This document shows positions 3 through 52,072 of a DNA stretch of 64,000 nucleotides, in pieces (within the stretch, counting starts at the first letter, position 1; every line of letters starts with the position of its first letter). The position numbers and the translations under genes were made by a program. Where the stretch lies: NCBI GenBank assembly GCA_013138735.1, contig WTCE01000030.1:1-64000 (forward strand), in the 5' to 3' direction. The notes beneath the pieces are model-generated. The model searched no databases and was not told the DNA's origin. It saw only the letters and a program-made list of their open reading frames with translations. The stretch comes from Crocinitomix sp. GTDB lineage: Bacteria; Bacteroidota; Bacteroidia; Flavobacteriales_D; Crocinitomicaceae.

Positions 3-761
3 GTCATCAGTATTTTACACACTTGGACACAAAAATTAGAATACCATCCACACTTGCATTGTATTGTGCCAAGTGGTGGACTCACTGCTAGTGGAGAATG
101 GAAAGCCAAATCAGGTAAGTTTTTATTTTATGTACCCAATTTAAGCAAAGTGTTTAAGGCTAAGTTTTGCGAAGGTTTTAAGCTGCTCTACAATACTCAA
201 AAATTAAAAACACCCACAGGCTTTAATCCTACTGAATTCAAAGCTTTTGTTAACGCTTTATTCGACAAAGACTGGGTGGTAAACAGCAAACCTGGCTTCA
301 ATGGTAAAGCTCATGTTTTAGAATACTTAGCCCGCTATACGCACAAAATTGCCATTAGTAATTACCGTCTAAAATCAGTAGAAAACGGATTGGTTAATTT
401 TACTTATCGAGATCGTAAAAAAGGAGATATTAAGCGCTTAACAAAGCTGCCAGTAGTCGCCTTTTTACAGCGTTTTGCGCAGCACATACTTCCCAAGTAT
501 TTTGTTAAAATAAGGCATTATGGCATTTTTAGCACAAGAGTAAAAAAGCAAAAATTAATACTCATCCGCAAAGCTCTAAACCAAACTGCTCCACCTAAAA
601 AGGATAAAATGACCTTGGCACAAGTTGTTTTAGAAACTACTGGAATTGACGTAACGCGTTGCACAAGCTGTAACGAGGGGGAAATGATTGTCTTTAAAGT
701 CATTCATCCAAGCCGCGGATCGCCCAGAAAACTATTACCAAATAAACTAGAATACTCATGA
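3..761 (+). CDS. IS91-family transposase, 5' end outside window
   Basis: This is the C-terminal part of a rolling-circle (HUH/Y2-type) transposase of the IS91 family. The frame is already open at the first bases and reads VISILHTWTQKLEYHPHLHC, so the gene starts before the window; the HPHLH metal-binding motif and the following CIVPSGGL are hallmarks of the family. Further on are the LARYTHKIAISNYRL block and a late CTSCNEGEM zinc-ribbon-like pair, also usual for IS91 proteins. The family nicks one strand at the element end and replicates into a new site. No frameshift is visible in the part seen, but whether the whole element is intact cannot be judged. The neighbourhood (palindrome, orphan gene) fits a mobile or hitch-hiking segment. 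Confidence 0.9.
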   Translation, partial: VISILHTWTQKLEYHPHLHCIVPSGGLTASGEWKAKSGKFLFYVPNLSKVFKAKFCEGFKLLYNTQKLKTPTGFNPTEFKAFVNALFDKDWVVNSKPGFNGKAHVLEYLARYTHKIAISNYRLKSVENGLVNFTYRDRKKGDIKRLTKLPVVAFLQRFAQHILPKYFVKIRHYGIFSTRVKKQKLILIRKALNQTAPPKKDKMTLAQVVLETTGIDVTRCTSCNEGEMIVFKVIHPSRGSPRKLLPNKLEYS

Positions 762-1749: not shown

Positions 1750-4700
1750 CTAGTCTAAAACTGCAACTTTCAGTTCTTCAGTTACTATTGCTAATAAGTC
1801 TTCTTTATTATCTCTACAGAACAAGTGACCACCAGGCACAACTCTGAATGTGAATTCAGCATTAGTATGTTGGTCCCATCCTCTTACTTGATCTTCGGTA
1901 AATACAGTATCATCTGCACCAGCAAATGCCGTTAATGGGCAATTTAATGGTTCATCTTTAATGAATTTATAACGTTTACCTAATAAAATATCCGCTCTTA
2001 ATGCCGGAAGCATTTCGTTGAATACCGCATCATTATCAATAACCTCTGAAGGAATTTCTAATGAACGCAAGTGATCTTTGATATTCGGGATATTCTTCTC
2101 TTTGTAAACTTCATCATCACCGATTGCTTCTAAGAATTTGAACGGGCTCACTAAATGCGGAGCTCTCCATCCACCAACCATAAACTTGGTAGGTTGAACG
2201 TCTAGTTCTCTATTTAAGTGACGCGTTAATTCTAATGCTACACCTGCTCCTGAAGAGTGGCTATAGAATGCACAAGGTGTCGTCAATAATGGTTCCATTA
2301 CTTCAGCCATCTTAGCAACTAATGCAGCTACATCATCAAATGCTCTCTCATCTCCTCTTTCTTCTCTTCCTGGGAATTGGATAGCACATACCTCAACATC
2401 ATCTGGCAAAAACTCGTGCCATGTTGAGAATATTGAAGCTCCACCTGCAAAGTAAGGAAGACAGAATAATCTTAATCTAGGATTATCTACTTTCTTATAA
2501 CGGATTACCCATTTATCTAATTCAGATTTAGCTTCACCTTCTAGTCCAGTACCACCACCGGCACCGTTCAATTCATCAAGAATTGCCTCTGTCATCTCTT
2601 CCATAGTTGGTCCTCTCATGATTTTCATCATTGAGTAATCAATACTAACGTTAGATTGAATCCAGTTTCTAATTTGATTTGCCATTAATGAATCCAGACC
2701 ATATTTAGTTACTGGTTCAGCAGTATCTACTTTTTCAGAAGTTGTACCCAATACTCTTGCGAATGTGTCTTTCAACTGATCTAAGAAGATCTCTGTTTGT
2801 TCTTCTGGTTTAGACTCTAGTAATGTTGCTTTTAAAGCACCATCTCCAGAACCAGCTCCTGATCCTGCATTTAAATCTCCTTCTGTCACTAAGTGAGCAA
2901 AACGACTCGACTTAGCAGTATGCGGATAGAATCCACCAATTGTTTCCCAATCAGAATCTGTTCCAACTCTTTGGATAGGATTGTTTAATAACATTTGTTC
3001 TAATATCCAACATGCTTGATCAATAGAGAACGTTTTCCATCCTTGTTTATAAAGAAGGTCAATAACAACTCCATTTTCTTCAACATTTCTTGCTACGAAT
3101 CCAACATCACCAATTACACCCCAGTTAACTGTAGTAGCTGGTAACCCCTGAGCTCTTCTCCAATGAGAGAAGTTATCTAAGAAACTATTTGCACCTACAT
3201 AACTCACTTGACCTGGGTTACCATAAATGGCAGAGATAGAAGAGTAAGATAAGAAATGATCTAATTCCATATCCTTCGTTGCTTCGTGTAGCATCCAACA
3301 ACCTACGGCTTTTGGATTAAACACTTTCATGTACTTATCATAATCAATCTCTGGAATAGAAACATCATCTAATACCATGGCAGCATGCTGAATTCCTTTA
3401 ATCGGAGGCATTGTCTCAGCCACTTCTTTAAAGATTCTGTCAACGTCTGCTTGGTTGTTTACACTTCCTTTCGCAATCATGATGTTTACACCATCATCCT
3501 CCATGCTCTGAACGATAGCTCTTTCAAAGTCAGTTTTAACACCACTTCTACTCATTAGAACTAAGTTTCTAGCACCTTTAGTTGTCATCCATTGAGCAAC
3601 TGATAATCCAAATCCTGAAGCACCACCTGTTAATAGGTATGTTCCATCTTCTTTGAATTTAATTTCAGTAGCTGGAGCGATATCAACTTCGCCTTCCATT
3701 GATACAATTACTTTACCAATATGTCTTGCTCCACCCATGAATTGGAATGCATCTGCTAGTTTACCTATTGGGAATACAGTCACTGGATGTGGTGCAAATT
3801 TGTTTTCAACGAAGTAGTCAATAGACTCTTGGAATAATTTACCTCCAAAGGCCTTCTTTTGCTCGAACAATCTGTCAACATCCACACCAAAGTATGTTAA
3901 GTTGTTACCAAATGGTTGAAGCCCTAGTTTAGAGTTTCTATAGATATCTGTTTTACCAATTTCAATGAATCTACCATAGGCAGATAAACATCTAACTGAT
4001 TTAAATATCGCTTCACCCGAAAGTGAATTTAAAACTACATCAACACCTACACCATTTGTTTTCTCCATGATTTCATCAGCAAAATCTAATGTTCTGGAGT
4101 TCATGATATTTTCAGGTTTAACACCTAAACTGATAATGTAATCTCTTTTTACTTGTGTACTTACTGTTGCGTAAATCTCAGCTCCTACTGCATTTGCAAT
4201 ATTAATAGCTGCGATACCAACACCACCTGCTGCTGCGTGAATCAAAACAGTTTCACCTGCTTCTAATCTACAGTGATGGATTAAAGAAAAATAAGCTGTC
4301 GTATATACTACAGGTAAACTTGCTGCTTCATGCCAGTTAATGTTCGCTGGTTTCTTCACACAGTGTACTCCGTAAGCATAAGCAAATCCACCTAAACAAG
4401 AAGGGGCAGTTGCCATCACTTCGTCACCAACTTTGACGTTAGTCACATCAGCTCCTACTTTAGTAATTATACCAGCACATTCTAAACCGAATGTTTTACC
4501 GAATAATCCACCATTTACAGCATCATCAGATAAAAGACCCATAGCAATCATAATATCTCTAAAGTTTAGAGCAGATGCTTTGATTTGAATCTCTACTTGA
4601 TTCGCTTCAGGAGTTCTTCTTGCGCTTTCTCTTAATACAACATTATCAAGTACACCAAATTCTTCAATTGTACCTGTATAAGCAGAACCTTCAGCAGGAA

Positions 4701-7700
4701 CAGATTTCATAGCTTGTTTCGCTATGTTATCCATTGATAGTCTTTCTAACTTGTTGATGTATCTTCTTCTTCCTCTAAATGCAATCTCATCCGTTTTATC
4801 ACCAGCAAACATTTCGTCAACTAATACTTCAACTTCTACATCTTGCACAGGAGAACTCAAATCAACAACAGTTGTTGGGTAATTCGGGAACTCATTCACA
4901 ATTACTCTTGCTACACCTCTTAGTCCTTCTTGACCAAGATTTAAAAATTCAGGTGATCCAGCAACAGTTTGTGATCCACTTAAAACAACCCAAATACTTG
5001 GATTCACTTTATAAGAGGAGTTGTTCAGTTTCCGCATGATGTTCATCAACATGATGCTTCCTAAACCTTCAGCTTGTTCTATAGACTCAGCAGTAAGGTC
5101 TTCATTACTTACTAGATCTATACCCCAGCCAAATACTATCCCTTCAAGTTTACCTCTTGAATTAACGTGGTCAATTACTTTATCACAATCTACTTGTGAC
5201 ATAGCGCCAACCTCAAACTCAGTATCAGAAATCTGCTTGAATTCTGAACCTATTGTTACGTTGATGCTTGTTTTATTTAAATCTCCTAATTGAGCAGATA
5301 ATTTATCTGTTACTCCTTTATGATCTCCGAAAACAAGATAATCTGCAACTGCAGTCTTCGTTTCGTTTACAACAATCTTATCTGTGAAGTCAATTTTCTC
5401 AGCTCTCGCCATGATAACAGATTGACAAGAAATTGAGTTATCAGGAATATCACTAAAGTAAGCTGTGTTGTTATATCCGTTATCTGTCAGTACTTTTTCC
5501 CACATTTCTGGAGGCATAGTAGCATGATCAGTTCTGAAATCTTCATACAACCACCATCCTTCAGTCATACCAAAGATGAAATCAAGATATACTGGAGAAT
5601 TAGTCACCTCTAACATCATTAACACACCTTCAGAAGCTAATAATTTTCTAGCATTTCCTAAAGAAACACTTAAGTCTCTTGTGGCGTGAATAACATCAGA
5701 TGCGATAATTAAATCAAATGAATTCAAATCAACTCCTTGATCAGCAGGGTCTTTTTCGATATCCATAATTTTGTATTGAACAAATGGATATTCTGCAAAA
5801 CGTTGCTGTGCCTTGATCATGAACATGTGAGATAAATCTGTAAAGACATACTCTGTTCTATCAGCCGGTAACATTGGAAGGATAGCTTGTGTCATACCTC
5901 CTGTACCTGCACCAATCTCTAATACTCTGATTGTTTGATCTACTGGGATGTTCTTAATCAATTCTGCAATTGATCGTCCAGCTATATCGTTGTATTTCTT
6001 AAATGCGAATCCTTCAACATAATATTGAACAATTGCATCCCACTTATCTTCAGGGAAGATTAATTGAATTGGATCAACAGTTCCTTGTAATACACCAGCA
6101 ATATCTGGCCCACATCTACCTAATAATGTAGACTCGTGGTGGAATTGTGGATATCTCTTATTCAAATCTTCCATCCAAGCTCTCAAATCTTTGAAGTCTG
6201 GCGTTTTCACCACTTCATAACTTGAACCAGATCCAGTTAGGATTCCTCCTATTTGGATTAGCTTGAACATGTGATAGAAAAGACGTTTTTGAACTTCAAT
6301 TACTCCAAAATCTTTATATAACTGGTCCACATCAATCTTTGTTCCTGCCGCAAACGACATTCCCATTTCTTGAAGTGATTCGCAGATATAAGCCAATGTC
6401 AAATCATATTGCTCTGGCTCGTATTGCTCGTAATATTCTTTTTGAACAACTCTTCCGTTTACTTCATCAATTGTTTCTTGAACTCCTGTTCTAATTGATT
6501 CAGGATTTGGAAGATATTCTCCTGGATTACGCATTAACTCCTGATCAGCACGCGACTTCATGTTCCAATTGTACTCATAGAACCATCTGTCAGCTTCTCC
6601 TCCTGATTCACCTCTAGAACCTTTAAGGTACTGAGATTTGAATCCGTGGAATTCCGCAACTAAACTACCATCAGCATTGAAAATCCATAATTCACCTATT
6701 GCTTCTTCATCAGTCCATTCTCTTAATGTACCGTGAACAAATAATTTAGTAGAATTTACATCACCATGCCACTTGATTCTATCAATGTGACGTGGTACAT
6801 AAACTCCCATTTTCTTAGATTGATCTTCTCTCTCGTTAAAGATTCCGAATACAGTCTGGAAACAGCTATCTAATACACCAGGGTGAATATTAAATTGGAA
6901 AAATTCTGATTTTACACTCTCATGTACATCAATTTCACTTAAAGATTCCCAGTTACCATCACTTCTCCAAAGATTTGTGATTCCTCTAAAGCTTGGCCCT
7001 AAATATAAACCAGACTCCAATAACTCATCATGCATTGGTTTAACCGCAACAGGAATCGTAATTCTTTTCTTGATTGCTTCTAAGTCAACTGGTTTTGCAA
7101 CAAACTTATCTGCGATATGATTAATCTTTCCGTTTGAACACATAGTCCATTGCTCATCTCTACCTTTTGGTTTGGTATAAATAAAGTAATCTCCACTATC
7201 ATGAGAAATATCTATTTGGATATGTGGTGGCTCACCATTATCTGGTAAGAATAAGGCATTATCAAAGTTAACATCTTCAATAAATCCAAAGTTTTCACCA
7301 AATGATGCTTTAGCAGCACCAATCATTAAATCAACATGTCCTGCACCAGGGAATACAATTGGCCCTTGTACTTTATGATCTTCAATGTATGGGTATGTTC
7401 TTTTGTCTAAGTCAACCTCCCAAAGGATATTGTTGCTCTCTCTTGCCGAAACCGCTTTACTCTTCAAGTGTGGATGTCCAAATTCGACAGTTCCTAAACG
7501 TGTTTTCCTTCCTGCTTCACTTTCTACCCAATAAGAATCTTTTTGCCATGGGTATTTTGGAAGTTGAACAAAATTATTGTCTTCACCATAGAATGCTTTC
7601 CAATCTATATTAACTCCCCAAGTATGTAATTTGCCTACGTTCGATAAGAAAGTTTTCTTTTCATCCTCTTTTCTTCTCAAAGATCCAACAGCAATACCTT

Positions 7701-10176
7701 TTGCCTTATTGATTTCTAATAAATCATTTACGCCAATTGCGTGAATTGGATGTGGCCCTAATTCTATAAATGTATCAAAACCATCTTTTATTTGTGCGTC
7801 AATCGCATCTGTAAATAATACAGCCTCTCTCACGTTTCTGAACCAATACATTGGATTCAAATCTTCTCCTTTAACAACTCCACCTTCAACAGTTGAATAG
7901 AATGGAATGTCAGTAGCTTTTGTTTTGAATTCACCTAATGATGCTAATAACTCATCCTTTAAAGGTTCCATATGATGACTATGGAAAGGTACCCTTACCA
8001 CCAATAATTTATGGAAGATATCTTTTGAATCACAATCAGCTGCGATTTCCTCAATCACATCAGTATCTCCGGAAAGTGCAACCATTTCTGGTCCGTTTAC
8101 CGCTCCAACTGAAACTCTGTCTTCTTTTCCTTTAATCAACTCTTTGGCTGCTTCATGAGAAATTCCGACTGCCAACATTTTTCCTTTATCCGTTGCTTTG
8201 AACTGAACTCTTGATCTGTTAAAGATTAAAAGAACCGCTTGTTCTAACGTCAATGCTCCAGAAACATATCCAGCAGCAACTTCACCAATACTGTGACCAA
8301 CTACAGCTTTTGGATGAACACCCATTGCTTTCCACATTTCGTATAACGCAATTTGAATCGCGAAAATCGCAGGTTGAGCAATATTGGTTTCACTAATTTT
8401 TGATGTTTCTTCGTCTCTAGATAACTCTTCAATTAATGACCAGTCAGCATGAACAGCTAGCATTTTTTCAAGCTTTTCTATCGTGCTTTTGAAAATTGGT
8501 TCATTTTCTAATAATTGTCTCCCCATTGCAAACCACTGAGGTCCCTGTCCTGAGAAGATGAAAACAACTTTATCTTTCGTTTCTAGTGCTCTATTATCAG
8601 CAACTTCAGTCAATGTTTCACCATTCAAATAAACTTGAAGGCTTTCAGCTAATTCTTCTTTCGATTCTGCAACAACTGATAATCTGAAATCATGTTGTGA
8701 ATTTCTAACTGCAGTTGAGTAACAGATATCACTGAAAGTTGCCGTATTATCTTTGTCTTTTAACCAATCAATATATGATTGTGTTAATTCTTGCAATGCA
8801 TCAGCATTTCTAGTTGATAATGTACAAACTTGAAGTCCCTTTTTATCCGTAGAATTTTTTGGCTGATCATTTTGATTGTGACCTTGTAATACAACATGCA
8901 CATTTGATCCTCCAAATCCAAAAGAGTTCACTCCAGCAAAACTTTCTTCACCAGAAGCTGCAGGCCAAGGATGTTGGTCGGTTGGAACAACTAATTTTAA
9001 TTCTTCAAAAGGAATATTCTTATTTCCATTTTTGAAATGAATATTTGGTGGAATCGTTCTGTGCTTCATTGCTAAAAGCAATTTGCTAATTCCAGCAACT
9101 CCCGAAGCGGGCTCAAGGTGTCCAATATTTGATTTTATTGAACCAATAAAACAATCATCTTCTCTGTCTGTTCCAATTATTTTTCCAATTGAATTCGTTT
9201 CAATTGGATCTCCAACGAATGTTCCAGTTCCGTGCGCTTCAACATATTGAACAGCATGCGGATCAACGTTGGCATCTATATAAGCATCTCTTAATAAATC
9301 TTGTTGCGCTAATGGGTTTGGAACCGAGATTCCTTTTGTAGTACCATCTTGATTAACTGCAGACCCACGAATTACGCCGTATATATTATCTCCGTCAGCT
9401 TCTGCTTGAGAAAGCGGTTTTAAGAAAATTAATCCAGCACCTTCACTTCTAATATATCCATTTCCTCTTTCATCAAAAGAGTAACATGTTCCGTCAGGAG
9501 ATAAAAACCCACCTTTACTGAAGCCCATTTGAGGTTCAGGTTTCAAGATTGAATTCACACCACCAGCAAAAGCAGCGGTAGCATCACCTTCCCAAATTGC
9601 ACGACAAGCCATGTGTACAGCATTCAAAGAAGATGAACAAGCTGTGTCTAGGGCAAATGAAGGCCCTTTTAAGTTATATGCATAAGAGACTCTATTAGCA
9701 TTAATACAAAGTGCAGAACCTACATTTGTATGTGAACCAATGTTCACGCGCTCTTCATATGCATTTTGAAGATCTCCATAATCATGGGCAGAAATCCCAA
9801 CGAATACAGCCGTCTTACTATCATCTAAATCACTTAAATTCAATCCAGCATCTTGAATCGTTTCGTATGAAACCTCCAATATCATTCTTTGTTGTGGATC
9901 CATTCTCTTCGCCTCTAAAGGTGAAATCCCGAAGAATCCTGCATCAAATTTATCTACGTCTTTGATAAAACCTCCGCGATTTACACTGATTTTTCCAGCT
10001 CTTCTCCATTCAGGTGCATACATTGCATCCGAATCCCATCTATCCGCAGGTATAGGACCTAAGGCATCTTTTTTATCGCATATTAACTTCCATAGTTCTT
10101 CTGGTGAATTAGCTTCTCCAGGGAATCTACATCCCATCCCAATAATCGCGATTGGTTCTTTTAATTGTTTACTCAT
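1750..10176 (-). CDS. Stand-alone reducing type I polyketide synthase (KS-AT-DH-cMT-ER-KR-ACP-TE)
   Basis: This 2808-residue single-module synthase carries every reductive domain. KS: DTACSSS near residue 180, then HGTGT and NIGHLE. AT: FSGQGPQW, GHSIGE near 629, and VPFHSHHM, whose FH suggests malonyl-CoA. DH: HKVQGPIVFP near 935 and GVLDSCFQ near 1103. C-methyltransferase: VLEIGAGTGG near 1420. ER: LNFRD, then HAAAGGVG near 1980. KR: TGGASGFG near 2185, LDD (B-type) and SYVGAN. ACP: YGLDSLM near 2495. C-terminal GrsT-like thioesterase: YSHSSGAG near 2641 with GGHLF. Gly-rich linkers flank the ACP. The domain order is that of iterative highly reducing synthases, so the likely product is a reduced, methyl-branched chain released by the TE; that is inference. 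No phosphopantetheinyl transferase, loading or tailoring gene lies nearby. The ATG start runs straight into the KS domain. Confidence 0.95.
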   Translation of the reverse strand: MSKQLKEPIAIIGMGCRFPGEANSPEELWKLICDKKDALGPIPADRWDSDAMYAPEWRRAGKISVNRGGFIKDVDKFDAGFFGISPLEAKRMDPQQRMILEVSYETIQDAGLNLSDLDDSKTAVFVGISAHDYGDLQNAYEERVNIGSHTNVGSALCINANRVSYAYNLKGPSFALDTACSSSLNAVHMACRAIWEGDATAAFAGGVNSILKPEPQMGFSKGGFLSPDGTCYSFDERGNGYIRSEGAGLIFLKPLSQAEADGDNIYGVIRGSAVNQDGTTKGISVPNPLAQQDLLRDAYIDANVDPHAVQYVEAHGTGTFVGDPIETNSIGKIIGTDREDDCFIGSIKSNIGHLEPASGVAGISKLLLAMKHRTIPPNIHFKNGNKNIPFEELKLVVPTDQHPWPAASGEESFAGVNSFGFGGSNVHVVLQGHNQNDQPKNSTDKKGLQVCTLSTRNADALQELTQSYIDWLKDKDNTATFSDICYSTAVRNSQHDFRLSVVAESKEELAESLQVYLNGETLTEVADNRALETKDKVVFIFSGQGPQWFAMGRQLLENEPIFKSTIEKLEKMLAVHADWSLIEELSRDEETSKISETNIAQPAIFAIQIALYEMWKAMGVHPKAVVGHSIGEVAAGYVSGALTLEQAVLLIFNRSRVQFKATDKGKMLAVGISHEAAKELIKGKEDRVSVGAVNGPEMVALSGDTDVIEEIAADCDSKDIFHKLLVVRVPFHSHHMEPLKDELLASLGEFKTKATDIPFYSTVEGGVVKGEDLNPMYWFRNVREAVLFTDAIDAQIKDGFDTFIELGPHPIHAIGVNDLLEINKAKGIAVGSLRRKEDEKKTFLSNVGKLHTWGVNIDWKAFYGEDNNFVQLPKYPWQKDSYWVESEAGRKTRLGTVEFGHPHLKSKAVSARESNNILWEVDLDKRTYPYIEDHKVQGPIVFPGAGHVDLMIGAAKASFGENFGFIEDVNFDNALFLPDNGEPPHIQIDISHDSGDYFIYTKPKGRDEQWTMCSNGKINHIADKFVAKPVDLEAIKKRITIPVAVKPMHDELLESGLYLGPSFRGITNLWRSDGNWESLSEIDVHESVKSEFFQFNIHPGVLDSCFQTVFGIFNEREDQSKKMGVYVPRHIDRIKWHGDVNSTKLFVHGTLREWTDEEAIGELWIFNADGSLVAEFHGFKSQYLKGSRGESGGEADRWFYEYNWNMKSRADQELMRNPGEYLPNPESIRTGVQETIDEVNGRVVQKEYYEQYEPEQYDLTLAYICESLQEMGMSFAAGTKIDVDQLYKDFGVIEVQKRLFYHMFKLIQIGGILTGSGSSYEVVKTPDFKDLRAWMEDLNKRYPQFHHESTLLGRCGPDIAGVLQGTVDPIQLIFPEDKWDAIVQYYVEGFAFKKYNDIAGRSIAELIKNIPVDQTIRVLEIGAGTGGMTQAILPMLPADRTEYVFTDLSHMFMIKAQQRFAEYPFVQYKIMDIEKDPADQGVDLNSFDLIIASDVIHATRDLSVSLGNARKLLASEGVLMMLEVTNSPVYLDFIFGMTEGWWLYEDFRTDHATMPPEMWEKVLTDNGYNNTAYFSDIPDNSISCQSVIMARAEKIDFTDKIVVNETKTAVADYLVFGDHKGVTDKLSAQLGDLNKTSINVTIGSEFKQISDTEFEVGAMSQVDCDKVIDHVNSRGKLEGIVFGWGIDLVSNEDLTAESIEQAEGLGSIMLMNIMRKLNNSSYKVNPSIWVVLSGSQTVAGSPEFLNLGQEGLRGVARVIVNEFPNYPTTVVDLSSPVQDVEVEVLVDEMFAGDKTDEIAFRGRRRYINKLERLSMDNIAKQAMKSVPAEGSAYTGTIEEFGVLDNVVLRESARRTPEANQVEIQIKASALNFRDIMIAMGLLSDDAVNGGLFGKTFGLECAGIITKVGADVTNVKVGDEVMATAPSCLGGFAYAYGVHCVKKPANINWHEAASLPVVYTTAYFSLIHHCRLEAGETVLIHAAAGGVGIAAINIANAVGAEIYATVSTQVKRDYIISLGVKPENIMNSRTLDFADEIMEKTNGVGVDVVLNSLSGEAIFKSVRCLSAYGRFIEIGKTDIYRNSKLGLQPFGNNLTYFGVDVDRLFEQKKAFGGKLFQESIDYFVENKFAPHPVTVFPIGKLADAFQFMGGARHIGKVIVSMEGEVDIAPATEIKFKEDGTYLLTGGASGFGLSVAQWMTTKGARNLVLMSRSGVKTDFERAIVQSMEDDGVNIMIAKGSVNNQADVDRIFKEVAETMPPIKGIQHAAMVLDDVSIPEIDYDKYMKVFNPKAVGCWMLHEATKDMELDHFLSYSSISAIYGNPGQVSYVGANSFLDNFSHWRRAQGLPATTVNWGVIGDVGFVARNVEENGVVIDLLYKQGWKTFSIDQACWILEQMLLNNPIQRVGTDSDWETIGGFYPHTAKSSRFAHLVTEGDLNAGSGAGSGDGALKATLLESKPEEQTEIFLDQLKDTFARVLGTTSEKVDTAEPVTKYGLDSLMANQIRNWIQSNVSIDYSMMKIMRGPTMEEMTEAILDELNGAGGGTGLEGEAKSELDKWVIRYKKVDNPRLRLFCLPYFAGGASIFSTWHEFLPDDVEVCAIQFPGREERGDERAFDDVAALVAKMAEVMEPLLTTPCAFYSHSSGAGVALELTRHLNRELDVQPTKFMVGGWRAPHLVSPFKFLEAIGDDEVYKEKNIPNIKDHLRSLEIPSEVIDNDAVFNEMLPALRADILLGKRYKFIKDEPLNCPLTAFAGADDTVFTEDQVRGWDQHTNAEFTFRVVPGGHLFCRDNKEDLLAIVTEELKVAVLD

Positions 10177-11162: not shown

Positions 11163-11618
11163 CTAATCAACCCACATATGGCTTGTGGTGTTCCCATGAC
11201 AACTCATACAGTTTCCTGTTGTAATAGGTGAAGACATGTGTTTTGTTCCACCATCTCCGGTTATACTTGGATAAAGGCCATCTTTAAACTTTATTTTTTT
11301 AGTCGTATAGAAATTTCCTTTCGCATCACCTTCAATAGAATATTTCAAATCTCCCGTACCGTTTGCACCTGTATATAATTCTACCAACATATTGGGATAA
11401 ACTGTTGAAAAACTTGGATCATAAACTGTTCCCGCGGCTTCAAACCATCCTTCAACACCACCTATTTTCGAATGGCAGGCCATACAATTTTCACCTGCGT
11501 TATGGCTTTCATCATCACCATACGTGCTAATCTTTTTTTCAAATCGATCCCCTTCGCAAGATTGAAATAGGAATAGTGTTGAAATTGCGAATATAAATTG
11601 AATACTTTTTCTCATCAT
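11163..11618 (-). CDS. Lipoprotein with two CxxCH motifs
   Basis: This is a 151-residue exported lipoprotein: a hydrophobic leader ends in LFQSC with the lipidated Cys at about 21. CMACH (45-49) and CMSCH (137-141) match the c-type heme attachment motif, so it may be a small diheme cytochrome facing the periplasm. Between them lies a domain with YPNMLVELYTGANGTGDLKY that is shared with the gene just upstream. The two genes are tandem paralogues with a 9-nt gap and are surely co-transcribed. They follow the sigma/anti-sigma pair and the metal-efflux genes. An electron-transfer or metal-sensing role is inference; the two motifs could instead bind a metal without heme. Confidence 0.75.
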   Translation of the reverse strand: MMRKSIQFIFAISTLFLFQSCEGDRFEKKISTYGDDESHNAGENCMACHSKIGGVEGWFEAAGTVYDPSFSTVYPNMLVELYTGANGTGDLKYSIEGDAKGNFYTTKKIKFKDGLYPSITGDGGTKHMSSPITTGNCMSCHGNTTSHMWVD

Positions 11619-11627
11619 TTAATAATT

Positions 11628-12125
11628 TTATTTTGTCCAAATTTCACTTGTTGTATTGCCGTGACAACTAGTGCAATTACCTGTTACAATTGGGCTATTC
11701 ATATATTGCGTAGTCAAATCTCCTTCAACAGCAGGGTATAGTCCTGATTGTAAATTAATAGTAGAAGACGAATAAAAATTTCCTCTACCATCTACTTCAA
11801 AGGTATATTTTAAATCACCCGTTCCACTTGGCCCCGTGAACAGCTTCACTGTTGTATTTGGGTAGGTTGTCACTAGTGATTCGTCATAAACTGTTGAAGC
11901 AATTGTAAACCAACCTTCTCCTGTTCCTCCCGAATAGTGACAACTGGCACATGCAAGTCCCATATTATGACTTTCCATATCTCCATAGCTACTTAGCTTA
12001 TATTCACCCCCACCTTCTATTACTATATCCGCTGGCACAGCTTCTTCATAAGGTTCTGTTTTGTCCTTTGCACAAGACATAAATGTTAAAATAGAGAGTA
12101 AGAATAAACTTGTTACTAATTTCAT
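11628..12125 (-). CDS. Lipoprotein with two CxxCH motifs, paralogue of the next gene
   Basis: A 165-residue exported lipoprotein with its lipobox at LTFMSC (Cys 18) and two heme-type motifs, CASCH (59-63) and CTSCH (151-155). It shares order and spacing with the downstream 151-residue protein, including SYGDMESHN before the first motif, YPNTTVKLFTGPSGTGDLKY in the middle and SPIVTGN before the second. It is the first gene of the tandem pair, 53 nt after the barrel protein gene. Diheme cytochrome c is the leading reading, but no axial ligand or partner can be assigned from sequence alone. Confidence 0.75.
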   Translation of the reverse strand: MKLVTSLFLLSILTFMSCAKDKTEPYEEAVPADIVIEGGGEYKLSSYGDMESHNMGLACASCHYSGGTGEGWFTIASTVYDESLVTTYPNTTVKLFTGPSGTGDLKYTFEVDGRGNFYSSSTINLQSGLYPAVEGDLTTQYMNSPIVTGNCTSCHGNTTSEIWTK

Positions 12126-12178: not shown

Positions 12179-13627
12179 TTAAAAATATTTTTTAATTCCA
12201 AGTCCAACCCCTATCGAATAAGGTTTTATTACAACATTTTCATCTGAAGAAATCGAGTTAAGCATTAGACTATATCTAAAATCCGAAACAATGGAAAAAC
12301 CGCTTTTAAAATTGTATTGCGTTCCAATTCCTAATCCAAAAGAAAAAGTTAGCGGTAAAATTGTTGTTTGATTTCCTAAACTAATATAGGATTCATTTCT
12401 ATTGGACTGATTCATCAAATAGTTGATCAATAAATCTCCTTTTAGATTTAAAAGCCATTTGTCTCTTGCAATAAAATTGTAGCGAATTCCGATAGGCATT
12501 TCCAAGTAATAAAAATAACGCTCAACATAGAAAAAATCATCCTCATCCTGATATTCTCCTTCTTCAATATGCACTTCACCAAAAGCAGTTTGAAAATCAA
12601 AATTATCAACTTCAGTTCTTAAACGCTGTTCAAGCTCCGTTTTTTCAAAATTCAAGCCTGTAAACAGTTCAATTCTCTTGTTAATCTTTATACCAAACTG
12701 GGCGTGTAGACCAAATCCGTCAGCTAGTTCAATCTCCTCGTTTTGTCCAGTGGCTAGTCCATTATTCTTATAAAAAGCTGAAGTTCGAATGCTTTGTGCT
12801 GCTAATTCAATATACTTTATGCGTTTAAATTTTCCAGGAATATCAATGGCCGTCGTATCGGCTAATCTGTTTATGGCTTGTTCAGTAGCGAGCGTGTCTG
12901 AATTTGATGGTTCTAATACCATTGCAATCGTATCATTTATTTCTGGAGTTTCTTTTGCTATATCGTCATTTTGCAATCCATCATCCCCCTCTGTTTTCAT
13001 ACTATTATCATCAATGGAATCTGCCTTTACAGTAGCCATTTTCATCCCTTTCTTATTATCAATTACATTTTCAATAGCATCAATTATTGGTTCATTTTCA
13101 GCTAAATTCGTTGCACTACTTGTTTCATTTTCCTGCGCCCATTTTTGGCCAACGGCATTGGTATTATTGTTATTTCCTGCTTCATTCAGATCTGTTTTTT
13201 TGACAGTATTTGAAAAATTCATGTTTTGGGTATTTGTCTGAGCAAACTGTTTGTTTTCATATTCAGTTGAATCAGACTTATTGTTAGAATCAGCTTGCAC
13301 CATCTCATGCTCTGTTTCTCTATGTTTAGAATCGTTTAAAGTGCTGTATAATGAAATAGGTTTTGCGCTTTGAGCAGAATTAATGTCGTCCTCAATAAAG
13401 TTTCTAGGCTGAAATTGATAAAAGTAGATCCCAACTATTAAACCCGTTATAGAAATTAACCCCAACCACATATAAAATCCGGGTCTTCGTTTCTTTTTTT
13501 CGGCATCAAGTTGTGCAACATTTTTTTCTATTGCAGCCCATAATCCTTCTGTACCAGAAGCAACATGATTTCCTATCTTCTCTCGAATTGCTTTGTCAAA
13601 CGCCTTATGTTTCTTCTCTTCTCGCAT
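12179..13627 (-). CDS. Membrane-anchored anti-sigma-like protein with C-terminal beta-barrel-like domain
   Basis: Residues 1-45 are a charged cytoplasmic segment (HVASGTEGLWAAIEKNV), followed by one membrane helix at about 49-70, a long Asn/Ser/Glu-rich low-complexity linker (80-270), and a C-terminal region (275-482) of alternating strands ending in IGVGLGIKKYF, like outer-membrane porin-type proteins. The gene follows the sigma-factor gene with only 1 nt between stop and start, so the pair is translationally coupled; this is how Bacteroidota sigma/anti-sigma pairs are arranged. The protein probably holds the sigma factor at the inner membrane and senses envelope state through its periplasmic part. 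Whether the barrel-like part inserts in the outer membrane while the N-terminus sits in the inner one is an open question. Confidence 0.75.
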   Translation of the reverse strand: MREEKKHKAFDKAIREKIGNHVASGTEGLWAAIEKNVAQLDAEKKKRRPGFYMWLGLISITGLIVGIYFYQFQPRNFIEDDINSAQSAKPISLYSTLNDSKHRETEHEMVQADSNNKSDSTEYENKQFAQTNTQNMNFSNTVKKTDLNEAGNNNNTNAVGQKWAQENETSSATNLAENEPIIDAIENVIDNKKGMKMATVKADSIDDNSMKTEGDDGLQNDDIAKETPEINDTIAMVLEPSNSDTLATEQAINRLADTTAIDIPGKFKRIKYIELAAQSIRTSAFYKNNGLATGQNEEIELADGFGLHAQFGIKINKRIELFTGLNFEKTELEQRLRTEVDNFDFQTAFGEVHIEEGEYQDEDDFFYVERYFYYLEMPIGIRYNFIARDKWLLNLKGDLLINYLMNQSNRNESYISLGNQTTILPLTFSFGLGIGTQYNFKSGFSIVSDFRYSLMLNSISSDENVVIKPYSIGVGLGIKKYF

Positions 13628-14902: not shown

Positions 14903-16042
14903 TTATTCTTGGATGAGATTAAATGCTCCTTTGATTAGAAATTCAGTTTTCGCTGTGAACTCATGCGTATTCAATATCTCTATATAATCAGCATTGATTT
15001 GACCAACTTGAACTTCTACTTGATCCAACTCATAACCTTCGGCTGTTTTATTTTTATTAACTAAAACATAATGTTTATTCTCGACTGAAATAATTGCTTC
15101 TTTTGGCAATGCCATGGTTGAATCACTTGAAGCGTAAATATCAGCTTCAACATACATTCCGGGAGTGAAAAGAGCGGTTTCATTTTCGTTTACTAAGTGA
15201 CAATGAATATTTATGGTACGCTTTTCAGGATCAATGGCTTTATTTATTAAATGAATAATTGCTTGGTATCTAGTTGGATTATTTTGCACGCCAAAAGAAA
15301 CTTCTTGACCAATTGCCACCTGCGCTAAATCCTTCTCAAAAACAGTTAATTCTACGTGCATGTGCTCGGTATTCATTATTGTCAATGCCACATCAGAGGG
15401 ATTTAAAAACAATCCTTTTGTTGCTAAAACGGCTGTCACATAGCCCGAAATAGGTGCTCTAACCACAATAGATGTTCGTAAATTGGTTTCATTCAATGAA
15501 TTTGGATCAATATTCATTAACTGCAATTTCTTTTTTAGCGATTCATAACGGGTTAGCATCACCCGATAGTCTGACTCTGATTTTAAAAAAACCTTTTGAG
15601 AGTTTACGTTATCCTTTGCCAGTTCTTTTTGTCTTTTATAATCCGATTCTAAATAGTTTAATTGATTTTTAGCCTCCAAAAAATCTTGTTGCACCTGGAT
15701 ATAGTCAGGATTTTCTAAAGTGAATAAGGTTTGACCTTTCTTGATTTCTTGACCTTCTAAAAGTGATATGTTTTTCACATACCCTCCAAAATAAGCCGAA
15801 ACTGTCGCTTTATTTTCAGGTGGAACATCTAACATTCCTGTTGTCTTAATTACCCTGTGGAAAGGTTGATTTGTAAACGAATCAAACTCCATTTCCCCCA
15901 AGTCAAATTGAGCGTCCGTAATGATAATATTCTCCGGTTCGATTTCGGTTAGTACAAATTCTGAATCGCTAGGATTTTCAGTTCCGCAAGACATCATCAG
16001 CGAAATTGTTAGGACGGATAAAATCAAGTGTTTGAGCTTCAT
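14903..16042 (-). CDS. cusB: RND efflux periplasmic adaptor lipoprotein, CusB/CzcB family
   Basis: This membrane-fusion protein bridges the inner-membrane RND pump and the outer-membrane channel. I chose the ATG at 16042 because it begins a canonical lipoprotein leader (MKLKHLILSVLTISLMMSCG); an ATG nine codons upstream (16069) is also open. After the lipidated Cys come the beta-barrel/lipoyl half (VSAYFGGYVKNISLLEGQEI), a coiled-coil hairpin (about 110-170), the second lipoyl half (VVRAPISGYVTAV) and the C-terminal barrel. There is no His-rich metal-binding N-terminus. It directly follows the pump gene (30 nt from its stop to this ATG), so the whole complex is made from one transcript. The metal ion cannot be told from this protein. 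Confidence 0.9.
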   Translation of the reverse strand: MKLKHLILSVLTISLMMSCGTENPSDSEFVLTEIEPENIIITDAQFDLGEMEFDSFTNQPFHRVIKTTGMLDVPPENKATVSAYFGGYVKNISLLEGQEIKKGQTLFTLENPDYIQVQQDFLEAKNQLNYLESDYKRQKELAKDNVNSQKVFLKSESDYRVMLTRYESLKKKLQLMNIDPNSLNETNLRTSIVVRAPISGYVTAVLATKGLFLNPSDVALTIMNTEHMHVELTVFEKDLAQVAIGQEVSFGVQNNPTRYQAIIHLINKAIDPEKRTINIHCHLVNENETALFTPGMYVEADIYASSDSTMALPKEAIISVENKHYVLVNKNKTAEGYELDQVEVQVGQINADYIEILNTHEFTAKTEFLIKGAFNLIQE

Positions 16043-16071
16043 TTGTGAATTGTTATTATTGATTTTCATGA

Positions 16072-19000
16072 CTAATTAAGGATGTAGTTTGCTTCAATAG
16101 CTGTTAAATTGAAAAAGAAACGGTTTTGTAAATAATTGAGTTTGATTTTATTTGCATGATCAAGAAATGCAACAAACTGGAGGTAATCAATTTCTCCTGA
16201 TTGAAAGGATTTATTGGCGTTTAATAAAGTTTTCTCAAATAATTCCTTACCATAATTGGTATAATTATCTATCCCTTTTTGGTAAGCTGCCAATTCAAGA
16301 ATTAAGGATTGATAATTTGCTATTAATTGAGTGGACAAATTTTCATATTCATTTTGCCGCATTAAAATTTCAGTTTTATTTGCTCGAATTTTTGCTTTAT
16401 CAGCTCCATAAAAAAGTGGAACAGCTATACCTGCCTGAAATCCAAAATAACGGTTCGGACTTGCGCCATTATTTGATCCTTGAAAAACACCCAAATTAAT
16501 ATCAGGCAAAAGTCCTTGTTTGGTTACTTTTAATTGTTCTTCACTCAATATTACCGATTGGTTTAAATAGGCCAAGGAAGGATTAGATGTCGTGTCCAAC
16601 GGAGATATTACAACTGTTTCAATTTCATTTTCAAGAATTGCATAAACAGTGTCAGACTGAATCCATTTATTGAATTGCAAAATTGATTTCTCATAATTGA
16701 GCTGACTTTGATCTAATAAAACGCCTACCTCTTTTCGTTTCGATTGCGCCAATAAAAGCTCTAAATTATTAGACTCTCCTAATTCAAATCGCTTTGTAGC
16801 AGCAGCCAAAAATTTTTGATAGACACTATCTAAATAACTATAATTGACAAGCAATTCACGCCAATGGGAAACGGTATAGTAGCTTGTCGTAATTTCTTTT
16901 TTTATACGTTGCTCACTAATTTCACGACCATTTTCAGCCAAAGCTGTTTGCTGCTTTAACACTTTTTTTTGTGCACTATAAAAAGAAGGGAATTGAATGG
17001 ACTGATTTATTCCCCAAATGTTTAGCGGAATATTATTAGGTGCAATATTATTCTGATCAAAATTGTAATAGATCTCTGTTTTATCAATTGTATAGGCTGC
17101 GCCCTCAGCCTGCTTCGTCATTTCAACTTGATTCAAAGCAGCTTGGATGTGCTTATTGTTTTTCAATCCTAAATCAAGGGCTTTATTTAATGAAATCTCG
17201 AATGTTTGCGCACTGGAATAGGTTCCTAATCCAAGTATTAGAATCAATCCTCCTGCTTTTATTAAACTAGGCTTTCTTTTGTTTTTTATTTTGCCTTTCC
17301 GATCAAATAAAGCATAAAGCACAGGAAGAACGATTAAGGTTAATAAGGTTGCTGAGATTAAACCTCCAATGACAACCGTTGCTAATGGCCTTTGCACCTC
17401 TGCACCCGCATTGGTAGAAATAGCCATAGGTAAAAAACCTAATGCAGCGGCGGCGGCGGTTAGTAAAACAGGGCGTAATCTTAATTGAGTCCCCATAATT
17501 ATACGTTTATTGATATCTAGGATGCCATCATGTTTCAGTTCCTTAAATTGCTCAATGAGCACAATTCCATTCAATACAGCAATACCGAATAGCGCAATGA
17601 AACCTACTCCGGCAGAAATACTAAAAGGCAAATCGCGGAAATACAAGAAAAGCACACCACCAACTGCTGAAAGCGGAATTGCACTGTAAATCATTAAAGC
17701 TTCTTTAATAGATTGAAAGGCAAAATAAAGCAAAAAGAAAATTAGCACTAAGGCTATTGGAACAGCCACCATTAAACGGTTTCTTGCCGAACGCAAGTTT
17801 TCAAATTGACCTCCATATTCAACCATATATCCTTGCGGAATTTCAATTTGAGTTTCTATAATTTCTTGTACATCTTTTACGACGGACTCCAAATCACGAT
17901 TACGCACATTGACGCCAATCACAATTCTTCTTTTGGTATTATCTCTGGATATTTTCGCAGGACCAGTTGAGTAACTTATTTTTGCGAATTCTGAAAAAGG
18001 CAAGGTATTTCCATTAGGTAAACGGATAGATGTTGTCTCTATGTTCGAAATATCTTTTCTATGCGCTTCATCATATCGCACCACTAAATCGAATTGTTTT
18101 TCACCTTCAAAAATTGTTCCGGCTGTTTTACCAGCAAAACCCATTGTTAACACTTCATTTAGATCGGCAATATTAACGCCGTATTTCGCAATTTTCTGCC
18201 GATCATAATGCACAGTCATTTGCGGTAAACCTGCCACCTTTTCAACTGAAATATCAGATGCCCCCTCGACGTTTTGAATCGCCTTTTCAATTTCTGTGGC
18301 TGTTTTGTATAAAACATCTAAATCTTCTCCAAAAATCTTAATCGCCAAATCTGCCCTAACCCCGGTAATCAGCTCATTGAATCGCATTTCAATTGGTTGC
18401 GTGAATTCATAATCTATCCCCGCTATATCCGTTAAGGCTTCTTTAAATGCATCTGTTAACTCATCTTTAGTCTGAGCAGTAACCCATTCACTTTTTGGTT
18501 TTAGTTTGACAATTACATCACTTTCCTCCATTGACATTGGATCAGTAGGCACTTCAGCCGCTCCAATTCGAGATACGACTTGTTCAACTTCAGGAAAAGT
18601 CATTAAAATTTTCTCGATTTGTGTAGTCGTCTCTACAGTTTTTGTCAAAGAAGTTCCTGTTTTAAGCACGGGCTGAATAACCAAATCTCCTTCATCTAAA
18701 GTGGGAACAAACTCTCCGCCCATTCGTCCAAAAAGAATGACTACCAAAACTAGTAAAGCACTTGCACCACCTAAAACAAGAGCCTTTCTTCTTAATGCCC
18801 AAATAATAACTGGCTTATACATTCGTCCTAAAAATGACACCAAGCGAGTTGAAATATTTTTCTTATTTGGATCGGTTGGCTTTAGAAATAAAGACGCCAT
18901 TACAGGCACATAAGTAAAGCAAAGTAGCATTGCTCCAATCAATGCAAAACAAAACACCAAAGCCATTGGTCTAAACATTTTTCCTTCTACACTAACCAAT

Positions 19001-20406
19001 GAAAGGATAGGGATAAACACGATAATAATTATGATTTGTCCGAAAATTGCAGAACGCATCATTTTGGTCGTACCCAAAAAAGTGATCTTATCAATAAACG
19101 CAGCTCTTTCTTCTTTTGGCAAGGCATTAATGGCTAACCTTTCAGATGTAATTTTGAATGCTATAAATTCGACAATAATGACTGCCCCGTCAATGATGAT
19201 ACCAAAATCTATCGCCCCCAAACTCATTAAGTTTGCATCCACACCAAAAATATACATCAAGGTTAATGCAAATGCTAAACACAATGGAATAACCGAAGCG
19301 ACAACTAAACCTGAACGGAAGTTCCCCAATAACAAAACAACAACAAAAATCACAATCAAACATCCTAGAATAAGGTTTTCACTAACTGTAAATGTTGTTT
19401 TTGCAATTAATTCACTTCGCTCTAAAAAGGCATTAATTCGAACGCCTTCTGGTAACGCTTTTTGAATATCTTCCACACGTGCTTTAACGGCATCAATTAC
19501 TTTTTTAGAATCTCCTCCTTTGAGCATCATAACTTGCCCGAGTACTTTTTCACCCTCCCCATTTCCGGTTATTGCACCAAATCTGTTAGCTGCTCCAAAT
19601 CCAACATTAGCAATGTCTTTGACGTAAACCGGCTGATTATCGCGAGTGGTCACAACGATATTTTCAATATCTTCAATCGAAGTGGCTAGTCCTTCTCCTC
19701 GAATAAAATAACTCTCATTTCCTTTCTCAATATAGCTACCGCCAGCAATACTATTGTTATTCTCTAAAGCCTGATAAACCTCTGTTATAGAAATATCCAT
19801 TGCTCGCAATTGTGCTGGATTAACTGCTACTTCATATTGTTTTAAAAAACCTCCCCAAGTGTTCACTTCAACAACCCCCGGAATTCCTGACAATTGTCTT
19901 TTTACCACCCAATCCTGAATAGTCCTCAAATCAGTAATAGAGTATTTATCTTTGTATTCTGGATCAACATCTAAAACGTATTGATAAATTTCGCCAAGAC
20001 CCGTGGTAACAGGCCCCATAAAAGGCGAACCGAACCCTGCAGGGATCTTTTCCTCGGCGCTTTTAATTTTCTCTGCAATTAATTGTCGTGGAAGGTATGT
20101 TCCAATTTCATCATCAAAAACGATTGTAACAACTGATAGACCAAACTTAGAAATGGATCGGATTTCTTTAACGTTGGGTAAGTTGGCCATTTCCAATTCA
20201 ACTGGATAGGTCAAAAACTTCTCAACATCTTGCGTTGCCAAGTTCCGGGAGGTTGTAATTACTTGAACTTGATTGTTAGTAATGTCAGGAACTGCACCAA
20301 TTGGAATATTCATCAAAGAATAAACCCCACCACCAAGTATAAACGCTGTTAACAGCAGTACAATTAGTTTGTTCCGAATACTGAAATTGATTATTTTTTC
20401 TAACAT
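16072..20406 (-). CDS. cusA: CusA/CzcA heavy-metal RND pump fused to a TolC-type outer-membrane component
   Basis: Residues 1-1035 form an RND transporter of the heavy-metal efflux family: VPDITNNQVQV near the N-terminus, the proton-relay helix DFGIIIDGAVIIVE near 400, two large periplasmic loops (SRIGAAEVPTDPMS) and a second set of membrane helices ending VLPVLYALFDR. A basic stretch and a hydrophobic segment ending YSSAQ (about 1046-1066) then look like an internal signal peptide with its cleavage site, followed by about 375 residues of a TolC/CzcC-like efflux channel (ISLNKALDLGLKNNKHIQAA, ELGESNNLELLLAQ). Pump and channel are thus one reading frame, an arrangement known in Bacteroidota. 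It probably exports Cu/Ag or Zn/Co/Cd ions using the proton gradient; the ion is not resolved. Four 11-bp repeats lie 46-90 nt upstream of the start. Confidence 0.93.
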   Translation of the reverse strand: MLEKIINFSIRNKLIVLLLTAFILGGGVYSLMNIPIGAVPDITNNQVQVITTSRNLATQDVEKFLTYPVELEMANLPNVKEIRSISKFGLSVVTIVFDDEIGTYLPRQLIAEKIKSAEEKIPAGFGSPFMGPVTTGLGEIYQYVLDVDPEYKDKYSITDLRTIQDWVVKRQLSGIPGVVEVNTWGGFLKQYEVAVNPAQLRAMDISITEVYQALENNNSIAGGSYIEKGNESYFIRGEGLATSIEDIENIVVTTRDNQPVYVKDIANVGFGAANRFGAITGNGEGEKVLGQVMMLKGGDSKKVIDAVKARVEDIQKALPEGVRINAFLERSELIAKTTFTVSENLILGCLIVIFVVVLLLGNFRSGLVVASVIPLCLAFALTLMYIFGVDANLMSLGAIDFGIIIDGAVIIVEFIAFKITSERLAINALPKEERAAFIDKITFLGTTKMMRSAIFGQIIIIIVFIPILSLVSVEGKMFRPMALVFCFALIGAMLLCFTYVPVMASLFLKPTDPNKKNISTRLVSFLGRMYKPVIIWALRRKALVLGGASALLVLVVILFGRMGGEFVPTLDEGDLVIQPVLKTGTSLTKTVETTTQIEKILMTFPEVEQVVSRIGAAEVPTDPMSMEESDVIVKLKPKSEWVTAQTKDELTDAFKEALTDIAGIDYEFTQPIEMRFNELITGVRADLAIKIFGEDLDVLYKTATEIEKAIQNVEGASDISVEKVAGLPQMTVHYDRQKIAKYGVNIADLNEVLTMGFAGKTAGTIFEGEKQFDLVVRYDEAHRKDISNIETTSIRLPNGNTLPFSEFAKISYSTGPAKISRDNTKRRIVIGVNVRNRDLESVVKDVQEIIETQIEIPQGYMVEYGGQFENLRSARNRLMVAVPIALVLIFFLLYFAFQSIKEALMIYSAIPLSAVGGVLFLYFRDLPFSISAGVGFIALFGIAVLNGIVLIEQFKELKHDGILDINKRIIMGTQLRLRPVLLTAAAAALGFLPMAISTNAGAEVQRPLATVVIGGLISATLLTLIVLPVLYALFDRKGKIKNKRKPSLIKAGGLILILGLGTYSSAQTFEISLNKALDLGLKNNKHIQAALNQVEMTKQAEGAAYTIDKTEIYYNFDQNNIAPNNIPLNIWGINQSIQFPSFYSAQKKVLKQQTALAENGREISEQRIKKEITTSYYTVSHWRELLVNYSYLDSVYQKFLAAATKRFELGESNNLELLLAQSKRKEVGVLLDQSQLNYEKSILQFNKWIQSDTVYAILENEIETVVISPLDTTSNPSLAYLNQSVILSEEQLKVTKQGLLPDINLGVFQGSNNGASPNRYFGFQAGIAVPLFYGADKAKIRANKTEILMRQNEYENLSTQLIANYQSLILELAAYQKGIDNYTNYGKELFEKTLLNANKSFQSGEIDYLQFVAFLDHANKIKLNYLQNRFFFNLTAIEANYILN

Positions 20407-37447: not shown

Positions 37448-37479
37448 TGCACTTTACTGAATTAGTCAATAGAACGCAG

Positions 37480-37497
37480 TCCCGATCACTATCGGGA
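37480..37497. repeat. Short palindrome between convergent genes
   Basis: TCCCGAT and ATCGGGA form a 7-bp stem around CACT. Half of the same motif (GCTATCGGGA) recurs at about 35068-35077, so it resembles small dispersed palindromes of Bacteroidota genomes. It sits between genes that converge and could help terminate both, though no T-run follows directly. Confidence 0.5.
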
Positions 37498-37578
37498 ACG
37501 CAGGTTTAGCAGATGCTCGCTGATTTTTTTGACTCAACCGATCACTTAAAATCCAAATTTAATCTTCGATTGTAGGCG

Positions 37579-38280: not shown

Positions 38281-38287
38281 GAATGTA

Positions 38288-50284: not shown

Positions 50285-50330
50285 TAAATGTGCTTTTTTT
50301 TATTAAAAACAGTTTGTATTACGTTTACTT

Positions 50331-50864: not shown

Positions 50865-51062
50865 GTTTTGGTAATGGTTGGCGTACGTATGAGTAAATAT
50901 AGCCATTTTTAGATGGTACGACGAGTGCGCTGGCTAAGTTCCAGACATTGTCCTTTATGTGTGACGTAACCCCAAGATACTGGACAAACAAATGGTTTAA
51001 AGGAGTAATACCAAGAAGTGTGGAGATTTGGAATAAAGAGAACTCATGTTAATATGTTACCT

Positions 51063-51968: not shown

Positions 51969-52072
51969 ATTTGCGGTATTGAAGGTTATTTATGAATAAA
52001 CGTGCTTGATCGTATTAATTTAAATGTCCCTCGAAATTACAAAATCCCCTACTCCTTTTCAAATTAGTGCGT

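Follow-up and report, generated by a model that had tools for sequence, protein, structure and literature searches.

The window analysed here, the first 64 kb of a 135-kb contig (C49) in a 6.84-Mb genome assembled into 188 contigs, carries one gene for a type I polyketide synthase (PKS) near the contig end. Its frame is unbroken at 1750-10176 on the minus strand, begins with ATG and comprises 2,808 codons. The features in and beside it are as follows.

3-761, plus strand: Y2-type transposase (PF04986, Pfam), cut by the contig end
819-1060, no strand: repeat; 819-1060 is also found at the start of contig C46, and 945-1060 at the ends of contigs C40 and C19
1662-1720, minus strand: intrinsic terminator 3' of the PKS gene, with a hairpin at about 1672-1720 and a T run; inverted repeat
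1750-10176, minus strand: type I PKS gene, 2,808 aa, KS-AT-DH-cMT-(structural KR)-ER-KR-ACP-TE, from ORF and Pfam
1783-2472, minus strand: thioesterase (TE), residues 2569-2798, type II-like (RifR), from Pfam, alignment and structure match
2581-2781, minus strand: ACP domain, residues 2466-2532, GLDSL, from Pfam and alignment
3112-3645, minus strand: catalytic KR domain, residues 2178-2355, LDD motif, from Pfam and alignment
3703-4605, minus strand: ER domain, residues 1858-2158, from Pfam and alignment
4810-5337, minus strand: structural KR-like segment, residues 1614-1789, Pfam match under the cut-off
5401-6408, minus strand: C-methyltransferase (cMT), residues 1257-1592 by the CurJ match, Pfam core 1419-1519
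6625-7476, minus strand: DH domain, residues 901-1184, from Pfam and alignment
7609-8565, minus strand: AT domain, residues 538-856, GHSIGE and VPFHSHHM (malonyl-like, not xASH)
8884-10158, minus strand: KS domain, residues 7-431, with the Cys and the two His motifs unbroken and with DPQQ and HGTGT in canonical form

The KS, AT, DH, cMT, ER, KR and ACP domains all lie in one chain with their active-site residues. Pfam domains were read from the best 25 of the 27 families in the hmmscan output, where the KS appears as two matches (residues 7-258 and 266-381). The motifs seen are DTACSSS, EAHGTGT, GHSIGE, HKVQGPIVFP, LEIGAGTGG, AAAGGVG, GLDSL, HSSG and GGHLF, together with HAT and LEVTN in the cMT and the S-Y-N set in the KR. 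A first-pass annotation had described a single 8.4-kb gene with this order of catalytic domains and all their catalytic motifs, and the intact frame, the Pfam matches and the motifs agree with it. Nineteen complete or nearly complete proteins were aligned, 17 from the family and two plasmid outgroups; DTACSSS is present in 16 of the 17 rows with letters at that position, GHSIGE in all 19, the SAM motif in all 17 rows having a cMT domain and AAAGGVGIAA in 17 of 19; broken KS, DH, KR or ACP motifs are found chiefly in one relative (L025) and both outgroups, with a few changes in another (L019). The terminator that the annotation had placed behind the gene also stands: the hairpin folds at -27.7 kcal/mol (z -6.4) and none of 200 shuffles was equally good, even though a simple terminator scan does not have it in its list. 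The region upstream is indeed nearly gene-free, the sole frame between 10176 and 11163 being one of 73 aa. Beyond it (11163-12125) lie genes for two small paralogous proteins in tandem, each beginning like a lipoprotein and bearing two CxxCH motifs (cytochrome-like). The G+C content of the PKS gene (0.36-0.38) falls in the range of its surroundings (0.34-0.38) and gives no sign of foreign base composition.

At the left end of the window, the transposase is of what we take to be the IS91 type. The repeat query ended at 1060, so that the repeat at 819-1060 may extend rightward, and the assembly probably broke because of the transposase and the repeat to its right. A hairpin near 1010-1060 was considered as an integron attC site, but a transposon end is the simpler reading. 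Between this transposon end and the PKS terminator lies a 151-aa frame (1071-1526) that matches no Pfam or NCBIfam model. The Pfam scan covered 49 of the 50 window ORFs of at least 150 aa (all except the antisense ORF at 12789-13241), and, the PKS itself aside, none of these 49 matches a family of PKS, NRPS, PPTase, acyltransferase or acyl ligase; on the whole of contig C49, neither a PPTase nor a second PKS-type KS was found. A search of Rfam at the gathering cut-off gave no RNA elements. Elsewhere in the window, a 1,444-aa frame (16072-20406) fuses an RND efflux pump (ACR_tran) to an outer-membrane efflux (OEP) domain; the RND efflux operon (14903-20406) was rejected as an exporter for the PKS, since in the clustering of flanking ORFs only its membrane-fusion protein has a homologue, in L019. 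The segment 35094-39799 holds a nucleotidyltransferase-like gene, two radical SAM/B12-binding genes and a methyltransferase, arranged as two opposed pairs, and its radical SAM/B12 and methyltransferase genes (35990-39799) were set aside as PKS tailoring genes given their distance of 26-30 kb. Seven same-strand ORFs of 178-308 aa at 49358-54926 have no Pfam match.

In the genome as a whole one PKS-type KS was found, the other three PF00109 matches sitting in frames of 392-425 aa, and on this ground we reject an assembly line of several genes encoded at other sites of the genome. The possibility, raised in the first-pass annotation, that the protein is a subunit of a scattered multi-gene cluster holds in a mild form, in that it belongs to a small pathway, but the synthase itself is complete. 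Because there is a single fully reducing, methylating module and only one PKS-type KS was found in the genome, iterative use of the module would be the likely mode, as that annotation had also proposed. A probable NRPS-like group of the same genome (L080, G000:C126:78000-95886) has one frame of 1,587 aa, another that stands alone and resembles the TE of the window PKS, and a third that is PPTase-like.

The AT and cMT domains offer clues to the building blocks. In the alignments, the AT motif VPFH takes the place of HAFH in CurL, VASH in MAS and YASH in DEBS module 3, and it is conserved in all 19 alignment rows. MAS and DEBS module 3 are methylmalonyl enzymes, and a methylmalonyl-type AT (xASH) is not favoured for the window PKS, which has VPFH where MAS has VASH. 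VPFH also differs from HAFH, the textbook malonyl motif; in the accessible part of the paper on Swf, IAFH is taken as a sign of malonyl-CoA (PMC3908369). The nearest solved relative of the cMT is CurJ. Because the AT carries VPFH and the CurJ-like cMT is intact, backbone and branches likely derive from malonyl units and SAM, respectively. The nearest relative of the TE is the type II enzyme RifR, and the TE has a Ser aligned with the position that is replaced by Ala in the second RifR chain, 3flb.

We compared the PKS protein with the GTDB species genomes by a scan for exact short peptides, which gave 23 loci, all labelled as Bacteroidota, with 59-93% identity over the best segment; since exact short peptides reach close relatives only, this is no proof of confinement to Bacteroidota. 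The flanking ORFs of these loci were clustered and the family representatives were profile-scanned. Downstream counts refer to the 20 loci with at least 1.7 kb of sequence there (L024, L028 and L030 are without downstream DNA). An Sfp-type PPTase (F1, PF01648) follows the PKS in 17 of the 20 loci, being missing in L014, L016 and L025, and in all 17 its start lies at most 206 bases from the PKS end, with an overlap in L019 and L022. An AMP-binding acyl-CoA ligase (F2, PF00501), whose best model is FadD11, under its cut-off, occurs in 11 of the 20. Some contigs being short, a PlsC-type acyltransferase (F3, PF01553) was seen in 7 of all 23 loci, an LpxL-type acyltransferase (F6) in 3 and a family named here F4 in 5. 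The best model for the PlsC-type family is the Aas acyl-ACP-phospholipid acyltransferase, far below its cut-off, and the NHxxxxD motif is present in 8 of 8 members. F4 is a family of 380-400 aa without a Pfam match that adjoins the PKS (for example, L023:20969-22117 and L021:21163-22332); an AlphaFold model from three sequences has a mean pLDDT of 41, and no match to the Deinococcus GNAT was found. None of the identified recurring ORF families beside the PKS is a transporter, regulator or tailoring enzyme (F4 being unnamed), and in L014 and L016 no partner lies near the PKS within the 2.6 and 9.0 kb of downstream sequence covered.

In the window's own genome, the same three partners lie together near the left end of a 33.9-kb contig, C128: the PPTase at 1256-2002, the ligase at 5859-7634 and the PlsC-type acyltransferase at 7688-8488. 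They are 79, 84 and 70% identical, respectively, to those of the nearest relative (G006/L009), in the same gene order, and in that relative the PPTase starts 48 bases past the PKS. All three frames and their motifs are intact, the PPTase retaining GLDLE and WTIKEAYLK. Contigs C27, C130, C28 and C140 begin with sequence shared with parts of the leftmost 147 bases of C128. In the debris before the PPTase is a repeat of about 140 bp (L078:896-1035), pieces of which occur in many contigs of the genome. The simplest reading, drawn from synteny and not from a joining contig, places C49 next to C128 across an insertion rich in repeats. The first-pass annotation had called the gene solitary and self-contained. 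The PPTase beside the PKS in 17 of 20 relatives, and the homologues of PPTase, ligase and acyltransferase together on C128, speak against the former; the impression of self-containment, seen against a PPTase next to the PKS in relatives and partners on C128, would be largely an effect of the contig end and a local rearrangement. The lack of a PPTase that it had noted holds for the 49 scanned window ORFs but not for the genome, which has four PPTase-family matches in frames of 216-248 aa.

The co-occurrence of the four genes was examined in 59 genomes, the window's own and those of relatives. A full-length PKS orthologue is present in four (G000, G006, G016 and G027), and these four, with no others, also hold the PPTase (E at most 1e-20) and the PlsC-type acyltransferase (E at most 1e-30); assuming independence and ignoring kinship, such a coincidence of four genomes among 59 has a probability of 2.2e-6 per partner. 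Ligase matches occur in 55 of the 59, mostly as one copy at about 43-51% identity. The four PKS genomes have a second, closer copy, with 61-84% identity in the three relatives; a further copy (45-46%) is likewise present in G003 and G005, where there is no PKS. On a wider scale the gene is rare, and its description as uncommon in Bacteroidota is upheld: a full-length close orthologue is found in 1 of 395 genomes across the phylum, namely the window's own, and in 5 of 399 genomes of the order. Nine other genomes of the phylum were matched through remote PKSs (29-37% identical). In the plasmid collection, the best matches outside the phylum are 30-36% identical (among the best 30 of 2,899 records). 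Viral carriage was rejected, as no PKS relative was found among the viral contigs scanned.

To place the enzyme among known systems, we used a KS tree of 33 rows, a quick tree in which 9 of 30 inner branches reach at least 95 and which has no SupA, HglE, LovB or FAS rows. The PKS family is one clade (support 100) and thus, on this tree, a group of its own among the references, which include no Sup. Its neighbours are the Persicobacter and Aureibacter plasmid enzymes (94), followed by PKSs of Deinococcus (85) and by one of Paraburkholderia that lies among capsule genes (86); MAS, DEBS and CurL are placed elsewhere. The nearest KS group, the megaplasmid PKSs of Persicobacter psychrovividus (L082) and Aureibacter tunicatorum (L083), are 44 and 42% identical to the window PKS and are immediately followed by a PPTase gene, which carries an annotation in Aureibacter and is a homologous ORF in Persicobacter; unlike the window PKS, they are without a cMT and their TE is clearly different.

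Several known systems share features with the window PKS. Its best-scoring solved relative over the whole length is MAS (1008 bits), and its best NCBIfam match is the phthioceranic acid synthase (Pks2-type) model. MAS and Pks2-type synthases are stand-alone iterative reducing PKSs for multimethyl fatty acids with acyl ligase and acyltransferase partners; their methyl groups come from methylmalonyl-CoA, and they have no cMT and no TE. Membership of the mycocerosic acid synthase family was rejected, as the Pks2-type model failed (1240 bits against a cut-off of 2400) and the AT is not xASH. LovB, a fungal highly reducing PKS, and animal FAS have the same general domain order, the FAS with a C-terminal TE; they match the window PKS in two or three stretches, best over KS-AT-DH, with 712 and 687 bits, below MAS. 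A PUFA-type grouping, which the first-pass annotation had named as a finding that would speak against its reading, is not borne out, and PfaA/PUFA synthase is rejected, the PfaA model scoring 362 bits against a cut-off of 1010.

As far as the accessible parts of the papers go, the nearest published kind comprises the mono-modular synthases Sup and Swf, both from sponge symbionts. Swf, like the window PKS, has one fully reducing module and a malonyl-type AT; SwfA is KS-AT-DH-ER-KR-ACP without an MT and has DPQ[I/V] and HATGT in its KS, and its partners are a reductase-sulphotransferase and a radical SAM protein, whereas those of the window PKS are a PPTase, a ligase and an acyltransferase (PMC3908369). 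Identity with Swf is excluded by its defining motifs, since the window PKS has DPQQ, HGTGT, a cMT and a TE. Sup (SupA) is a single-module PKS proposed for mid-chain-branched fatty acids (PMC4245539), and the texts as available place it in unrelated bacteria, in sponge-symbiont MAGs of Chloroflexota, Spirochaetota, Proteobacteria and Acidobacteriota, without naming Bacteroidota (PMC9426513, PMC9864124). The window PKS is mono-modular and has a cMT; any likeness to Sup, defined as a mono-modular PKS proposed for methyl-branched fatty acids, is one of description only. In the parts available, an uncharacterised mono-modular clade (PMC10308959) has a PTM-like PKS-NRPS architecture and was rejected as a match, the window PKS being unlike it; PMC9765116 merely counts PKS clusters, and in PMC9248904 polyketide synthase appears only in the reference list. 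The literature searched, with most subscription papers outside it, contained no paper on this PKS family in Bacteroidota.

The history of the gene was assessed against RpoB, which 14 of the 17 genomes yielded, in one case as a partial sequence, and which was not found in those of L012, L015 and L019. The PKS is more similar than RpoB in 33 of 91 pairs, and the rank correlation of the two is only 0.20. For the 42 pairs with RpoB below 78% identity, excluding L025, the PKS-minus-RpoB difference ranges from -6.6 to +8.1 points with a mean of +2.4; with L025 included, the mean over 51 pairs is -0.8. Within the family of the window's genome, the PKS is much less similar than RpoB (69.7 against 92.0 for the window and L027; 74.8 against 88.9 for the window and L017). 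AU tests, on quick trees under one model with L025 omitted, reject the grouping in one clade of the four members whose place in the family preceded the tree (p 2e-50), and also a five-member clade including L023, whose family place was found later (p 1e-104). On this tree evidence the PKS gene has moved horizontally between lineages, because its tree contradicts the family relationships, and the earlier suggestion that the gene is transferable is strengthened accordingly. Its RpoB-like conservation between distant groups suggests one fixed product.

Two relatives are unusual in this respect. The PKS of L018 (L018:3014-14985) is 91% identical to that of the window, with about 81.5% DNA identity, even along the gene. 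The PPTase, ligase and acyltransferase of L018 share 47, 67 and 55% identity with their counterparts in the window's genome and are closest to L012 or L030 (64, 75 and 73%); unless the contig is chimeric, the synthase has apparently been swapped without its neighbours. In L025, the open frame of 2,472 aa (L025:1371-8789), the sole copy found in that genome bin, has KS Cys changed to Gly, HGTGT to HGAGN, DH His to Tyr and KR Tyr to Asn, and the ACP Ser and the TE are missing; it retains the AT, cMT and ER motifs. Judged from these residues, it is a catalytically dead relative.

Taken together, we think it reasonably probable that the window PKS is an iterative, fully reducing, single-module FAS-like enzyme whose product is an acyl chain with methyl branches and few double bonds, and that a small pathway dedicated to lipids is built around it. 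We envision that the PPTase would arm the ACP and the AT would load malonyl, upon which the KS, KR, DH and ER would work in repeated cycles while the cMT puts a SAM-derived methyl group on chosen alpha carbons. The type II-like TE would then release the free acid, the ligase would re-activate it to an acyl-CoA (or acyl-ACP), and the acyltransferase, PlsC-type in the window's genome, would place the chain on a glycerophospholipid or another lipid. In this genome, transposon and repeat debris would have parted the PKS from its PPTase, leaving a synthase gene that ends at its own terminator and partners that lie on C128. This pathway has its difficulties: freeing an acid with a TE only to re-activate it with a ligase looks roundabout; the ligase was not seen in 9 of 20 loci and the PlsC-type acyltransferase in 16 of 23 (some contigs being short); L014 and L016 show no partner nearby; the AT motif departs from the textbook HAFH; a second, more distant ligase is found in G003 and G005 without the PKS; and the PKS and its partners in L018 have different histories.

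Alternatively, the ligase might activate an ordinary fatty acid as a starter, to which the PKS adds a few branched units before the TE or acyltransferase ends the chain, as in the use made of MAS. The rank of MAS as best solved relative, the below-cut-off match to phthioceranic acid synthase and FadD11 as the best, likewise below-cut-off, ligase model all point in that direction, yet the AT has VPFH and not VASH, a cMT is present and the KS falls outside the MAS group, and we regard this use as unlikely. The retention of TE motifs in all orthologues except L025, together with a rarity and horizontal transfer that are usual for secondary metabolism, would also fit a product that stays free or is secreted, be it a methyl-branched fatty acid or a polyketide (a signal, antibiotic or surfactant), with the ligase and acyltransferase serving self-protection or recycling. 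That such a product is made seems doubtful indeed, as the identified recurring neighbours (F4 unnamed) include no transporter, regulator or tailoring enzyme, and near-RpoB conservation between distant groups would be unusual for a weapon. Finally, the window PKS could be an orphaned relic, cut from its PPTase by insertion and heading for loss; the PPTase is no longer adjacent, transposase or repeats lie at both contig ends, and a dead but open-frame relative exists in L025. We consider this very improbable, since the frame and catalytic motifs of the PKS are intact, it has its own terminator, and the frames and motifs of the PPTase, ligase and acyltransferase are intact on C128.

Returning to the dedicated lipid pathway, branched fatty acids in Bacteroidota normally arise from iso and anteiso starters through type II FAS. 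RpoB-like conservation, transfer between lineages and the association with PPTase, ligase and lipid acyltransferase genes would together point to a lipid of fixed structure, of a kind not described for the phylum in the literature searched, as far as its texts were accessible. The case also carries a caution, in that a biosynthetic gene that seems solitary where a contig breaks off may have its partners elsewhere. It is possible, though we advance it only tentatively, that a four-gene pathway, spread horizontally, gives scattered free-living Bacteroidota membrane lipids with PKS-made, SAM-methylated chains, amounting to a Sup-like system outside sponges whose synthase gene can be exchanged by itself and which may contribute branched fatty acids to sediment and water. 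The PKS gene would help to trace such lipids in bacteria that are not in culture, and its protein would serve as a compact programmed methyl-branching enzyme for study, with L018 as what may be a natural case of a synthase swapped while its partners stay.
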